A DNA stretch of 64,000 nucleotides, from contig CM050652.1 in the NCBI GenBank assembly GCA_027574665.1, positions 10,396,589-10,460,588 of the forward strand, written 5' to 3'. This stretch comes from Rhynochetos jubatus. Taxonomy: Eukaryota; Chordata; Aves; Eurypygiformes; Rhynochetidae. The position numbers and the translations under genes were made by a program. The notes under the pieces were generated by a model. The model was not told where the DNA came from, searched no databases, and was given only the letters and a program-made list of their open reading frames with translations. Positions 57,663 to 57,689 of this stretch are shown here, piece after piece. The stretch's first letter is position 1, and each line of letters opens with the position of its first letter.

Positions 57663-57689
57663 ACAAGTCATGGTTGTCCAAAATGCAAG
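57663..57689 (+). CDS. PCLO: PCLO 27-nt alternative microexon: nine-residue C2A insert (partial CDS)
   Basis: These 27 bases read, after completing the Gly codon left by the previous exon, QVMVVQNA plus the first two bases of a Ser codon finished by the next exon. This equals the nine-residue QVMVVQNAS insert described in the C2A domain of mammalian Piccolo. There the insert is alternatively spliced and changes the domain's conformation and Ca2+ affinity. Entry and exit are both phase 2, so the frame is kept with or without it: GRG-AEYKRR when skipped, [18 protein letters not shown] when included. The acceptor is ATATGCAG. The donor AAG|GTAGAG departs from consensus at +4, +5 and +6, so it is weak, fitting a regulated exon. 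It is too short for normal open-frame detection. Confidence 0.95.

Follow-up and report, generated by a model that had tools for sequence, protein, structure and literature searches.

A 27-nt microexon in the PCLO gene of Rhynochetos jubatus that very probably corresponds to the alternatively spliced exon for the Piccolo C2A insert

Does the intron between two exons of the Piccolo C2A domain in Rhynochetos jubatus contain the avian copy of the 27-nt exon by which mammalian PCLO extends this domain by nine residues, and is this exon likely to be both included and skipped? We studied this question within the window, i.e. the whole stretch of 64 kb (64,000 nucleotides) of genomic DNA analysed, in which three coding features are of immediate relevance:

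55910..56040, plus strand: C2A exon A, upstream, ending in the GG of a split Gly codon (sequence, tblastn)
57663..57689, plus strand: 27-nt microexon, phase 2, (G)QVMVVQNA(S) (sequence, match to 1rh8_A)
60925..61018, plus strand: C2A exon B, downstream, whose first T completes a Gly codon upon skipping or a Ser codon upon inclusion (sequence, tblastn)

The intron between exons A and B, which holds the microexon, comprises 4884 nt. A tblastn search with the corresponding segment of 1rh8 places the flanking exons co-linearly on the plus strand with identities of 93% (40/43 columns, two gaps) and 94% (30/32), background rows being obtained at E values of 0.29 and above. The first residue in the row of exon B, a Ser read from the intronic AG together with T, is a coincidental match. 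The microexon itself reaches an E value of 1.9 with the full query and of 1.3e-5 with a ten-residue query. Upstream of the C2A exons, tblastn locates the end of the Piccolo PDZ domain at 46461-46571 (35/37 residues identical to 1ujd_A, KIAA0559 protein), while the translated segment 46341-46571 yields no Pfam match at E values up to 0.01. This PDZ segment together with the co-linear C2A exons indicates that the 64-kb window spans the PDZ-to-C2A part of PCLO. At 54959-54982 the sequence encodes HPITGEIQ followed by GTAAAT, which marks the end of the exon immediately preceding exon A. A further open stretch at about 49956-50201, ending in ...VRNFSVTEQ, is presumably a linker exon of PCLO located between the PDZ and C2A parts; for 49680-50201 no Pfam match is found at E values up to 0.01. 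A motif search of the window did not reveal the next C2A exon, which probably lies beyond position 64000.

Apart from PCLO, the window contains fragments of a LINE-type reverse transcriptase on the minus strand (12698-13640), which we take to be CR1-like from their appearance and which would fit an avian origin of the DNA. The Pfam scan, to which six proteins were submitted, returned matches for the two C2A joins and for one of these fragments (13362-13640, minus strand; RVT_1, E value 1.1e-5, below the Pfam cut-off), while 12701-13006 on the minus strand gave no match at E values up to 0.01. A CR1 tail pattern occurs once in the window with one mismatch, which corresponds to chance level as at least one match is present in 26 of 100 shuffles.

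The block at 57663-57689 on the plus strand is exactly 27 nt long, with GGATATGCAG immediately before it and GTAGAG after it, and is thus bordered by AG and GT as originally predicted. Exon A ends in CCA GGG AGA GG, and the first base of the microexon completes the Gly codon (GG/A). There follow codons for Q V M V V Q N A, and the microexon terminates in AG, which is converted to a Ser codon (AG/T) by the first base of exon B, whose sequence begins T GCT GAA TAC. Joining the exons hence reproduces the nine-residue insert split at a Gly and at a Ser codon, with QVMVVQNAS placed between LPGRG and AEYKRR of C2A and encoded by a separate symmetric exon between two C2A exons. Translated from its own first base the block reads TSHGCPKCK, so that phase matters for reading it. 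Translation across the flanking exons shows that the skipped join (LPGRGAEYKRR) stays in frame and that the included join is likewise open; the frame is indeed kept either way, an observation which is uninformative on its own. As a small correction, exon B extends from 60925 to 61018, base 61019 being the G of the donor GT.

A phmmer search of the Protein Data Bank with the joined peptide as query returned 71 distinct sequences at E values up to 0.001. The top match, with an E value of 2.8e-47, is 1rh8_A (Piccolo protein), the sole entry named Piccolo among the best 60 of these 71. It is identical to the peptide from LPGRG through the insert to KRRTKY, which includes 9/9 insert residues and 14/14 adjoining ones, and alignment of the skipped form with it opens a nine-residue gap exactly at the insert. 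The skipped form scores higher than the included one against the Pfam C2 model (60.5 vs 55.2 bits) and against synaptotagmin-7 (82.6 vs 64.7 bits). That the block represents the nine-residue insert of Piccolo C2A is thus borne out by an identical peptide at the same place between co-linear flanking exons. Exon, phase, AG/GT borders, peptide identity and surrounding motifs are all read directly from the DNA, and we consider it highly probable from them that 57663-57689 and the alternatively spliced 27-nt exon already described for PCLO (Piccolo/Aczonin) are orthologous, its splicing presumably following the neuronal model proposed below. Near the start of C2A, exon A encodes two additional residues (KH) where 1rh8_A reads QINYD-LGN. 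Because synaptotagmin-7 aligns there without a gap, it may be the shorter version that is derived.

Around the microexon the following putative splicing signals are present:

57564..57660, plus strand: 97-nt AG-free stretch with a CU-rich tract, upstream of the acceptor (read from the sequence; presumed function)
57636..57640, plus strand: CTAAC resembling a branch point, its first base 27 nt upstream of the exon (consensus match only)
57649..57660, plus strand: two TGC (UGC) at -14 and -5 in an SRRM3/4-type context (read from the sequence; presumed function)
57718..57727, plus strand: TGCATGCATG, two overlapping RBFOX-type motifs (TGCATG), 29-38 nt downstream of the exon (motif match)

The AG-free run of 97 nt ranks eighth among 4403 AGs, the corresponding runs at the acceptors of exons A and B measuring 42 nt and 37 nt, and the CT fraction of 0.80 between -85 and -20 ranks seventh among 4399. 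The TGC alone is unspecific because the acceptor of exon A also has one at -12. We combined these features in a filter demanding at least 90 nt without AG, a CT fraction of at least 0.70 from -85 to -20 and a TGC within the last 30 nt. With thresholds that were chosen after the site had been seen, it is passed by a single one of 4404 plus-strand AGs, namely that of the microexon, and by none of 4430 minus-strand AGs. Six of 100 shuffled windows contain one AG which passes, none of them with a TGCATG within 120 nt downstream. The plus strand of the window holds no second copy of the decamer TGCATGCATG, and two TGCATG within 60 nt occur at a fraction of 0.0002 of positions in 300 intron shuffles. 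The donor AAG/GTAGAG agrees with the consensus at 5/9 positions, compared to 8, 7 and 7 for the gene's donors at 54982, 56040 and 61018, respectively. As 248/3580 GTs score equally well or better according to a donor matrix, it is to be regarded as weak, not absent.

These signals resemble those of regulated neural microexons. According to passages of PMC8797185, mammalian eMIC targets are marked by extended AG exclusion zones, by UCUC-rich tracts and by UGC in the vicinity of the 3' splice site; the acceptor described here combines a long AG-free zone, a CU-rich tract and UGC close to the splice site, and the 27 nt of the exon agree with the size of such targets (up to some 30 nt and divisible by three). 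TGCATG is overrepresented downstream of alternatively spliced microexons, as passages of PMC4317164 report, and the downstream intronic flank carries two overlapping copies, a motif match of the kind expected for RBFOX-enhanced exons. The same passages state that microexons controlled by RBFOX and PTBP1 have weaker splice sites. By the account of PMC8797185, the weak 5' splice site of fly exons is not common to mammalian eMIC targets, for which reason the weak donor fits control by RBFOX and PTBP1 and not the SRRM part of the model. Judging from these motifs, neuronal inclusion likely proceeds via SRRM3/4 and RBFOX and is opposed by PTBP1. In non-neuronal cells, PTBP1 on the long CU-rich tract would, in concert with the weak donor, provoke skipping and thereby leave the C2A domain at its standard length. 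In neurons, SRRM3/4 acting through UGC beside the AG and RBFOX acting through the twofold UGCAUG downstream would favour inclusion, which would add QVMVVQNAS after LPGRG. Hence both inclusion and skipping of the microexon are predicted for this species.

Constitutive or nearly constitutive inclusion, by which the exon would be no switch at all, could be argued from the full conservation of the insert peptide. We nevertheless deem it improbable in view of an exon length divisible by three and an open skipped join which yields a C2 domain of standard length, together with a weak donor and flanking motifs known from regulated microexons. Still less probable, and to be considered very unlikely, is a decayed relic whose splicing-in has been lost: the donor with its five of nine consensus positions would conform to this, but peptide, phase and AG/GT borders are intact and all nine residues are identical to those of 1rh8_A. 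That the block is an intronic AG-27-GT element which merely happens to be open can be virtually dismissed, since such blocks are common (19/24 in the intron are open) but only 57663-57689 encodes the insert, so that the peptide identity refutes chance.

The 4884-nt intron contains 24 AG-N27-GT blocks, 19 of which are open in the phase of the microexon, and 340 blocks when any length divisible by three within 6-51 nt is allowed, 216 of these being open. Frame-neutrality was therefore rejected as evidence. According to a model which takes only base composition into account, about 1e-11 blocks encoding the insert peptide in phase are expected in the intron. Thus, it is the peptide and not frame-neutrality which decides against chance. 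Within the window, QVMVVQNA occurs a single time in all six frames, and we accordingly rejected another exon as the source of the insert residues, a possibility which had been raised along with the original prediction. Among short tblastn matches the next best is QIMVDQN (minus strand, 730-710; E value 0.13).

Concerning the orthologous exon's effect on the domain, the long, insert-bearing C2A form would be the low-affinity, dimerising one. Garcia et al. 2004 (doi 10.1038/nsmb707) reportedly described the nine-residue alternative insert of mammalian PCLO C2A and its structural effect. Passages of PMC2924343 state that the mammalian insert displaces a beta-strand and changes the Ca2+ affinity of C2A, in agreement with what had been assumed for mammals in the original prediction; PMC1950890 refers to rat Piccolo C2A. 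By analogy with mammalian Piccolo, the insert would in this species, too, displace the beta-strand towards the Ca2+ site and thereby alter C2A conformation and Ca2+ affinity. According to passages of PMC4709825, no change was seen in synaptic transmission upon a knock-in disrupting Ca2+ binding by C2A, and the importance of the C2A switch in animals may accordingly be limited. The insert peptide is unchanged relative to the mammalian structure and apparently subject to a three-factor neural splicing code, yet loss of Ca2+ binding by mouse C2A is without observed consequence for transmission. We therefore put forward, very tentatively and as a rather doubtful proposal, that the C2A switch is strongly constrained in amniote active zones and that the insert plays a role beyond Ca2+ sensing (e.g. 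in dimerisation or in RIM or channel binding), perhaps tuned by the KH of exon A. If this were true, the conserved insert would point to a role other than Ca2+ sensing.

The microexon described here is a real but expected conserved feature, its product and effect having been reported for mammals as early as 2004. Passages of PMC3484663, in which the 27-nt exon is not named, state that the intron-exon structure of Piccolo is identical for mouse, lizard, frog, coelacanth and zebrafish pcloa, so that birds or other sauropsids were expected to possess a copy as well. The copy foreseen in the original prediction is present; the novelty implied for it was overstated, as the conserved structure predicts it. 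Among the matches listed in a literature search, no work on the PCLO C2A microexon in birds was found, and a search for PCLO with microexon or micro-exon gave no match. As a chicken aczonin cDNA was reportedly published around 1999, the exon may have appeared in the avian literature before. Of the tissues proposed for counting junction reads, retina is a poor choice because Piccolino, the ribbon-synapse form, is C-terminally truncated, as passages of PMC5660988 describe for inner hair cells; the abstract of PMC8109093 names retina and cochlea. The value of the locus lies in the fact that raw DNA of another vertebrate suffices to read the exact peptide and phase, along with probable splicing signals, of a structural switch already known from the presynaptic active zone, which may aid annotation as 27-nt exons are easily missed, and in the comparison point it offers for work on Piccolo C2A; a new mechanism is not revealed.

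In comparison with known systems, the resemblance to the mammalian PCLO C2A insert (1rh8_A) is closest, as gene, domain, all nine residues and their position are alike, 1rh8_A differing by the lack of KH. With regard to other C2 domains (synaptotagmins, RIM2, rabphilin), it is the skipped form which is of near-standard C2 length, and the alignments with synaptotagmin-7 and -3 contain no counterpart of the nine-residue insert. With neural microexons governed by SRRM3/4, PTBP1 and RBFOX, as characterised in passages of PMC8797185 and PMC4317164, the exon has in common its length of 27 nt, a multiple of three, the AG exclusion zone, UGC, the CU-rich tract and TGCATG downstream. Unlike the mammalian eMIC targets in the passages of PMC8797185 it possesses a weak donor, and in contrast to the many alternatively spliced microexons which, according to passages of PMC4317164, encode disordered segments, it sits inside a folded C2 domain.
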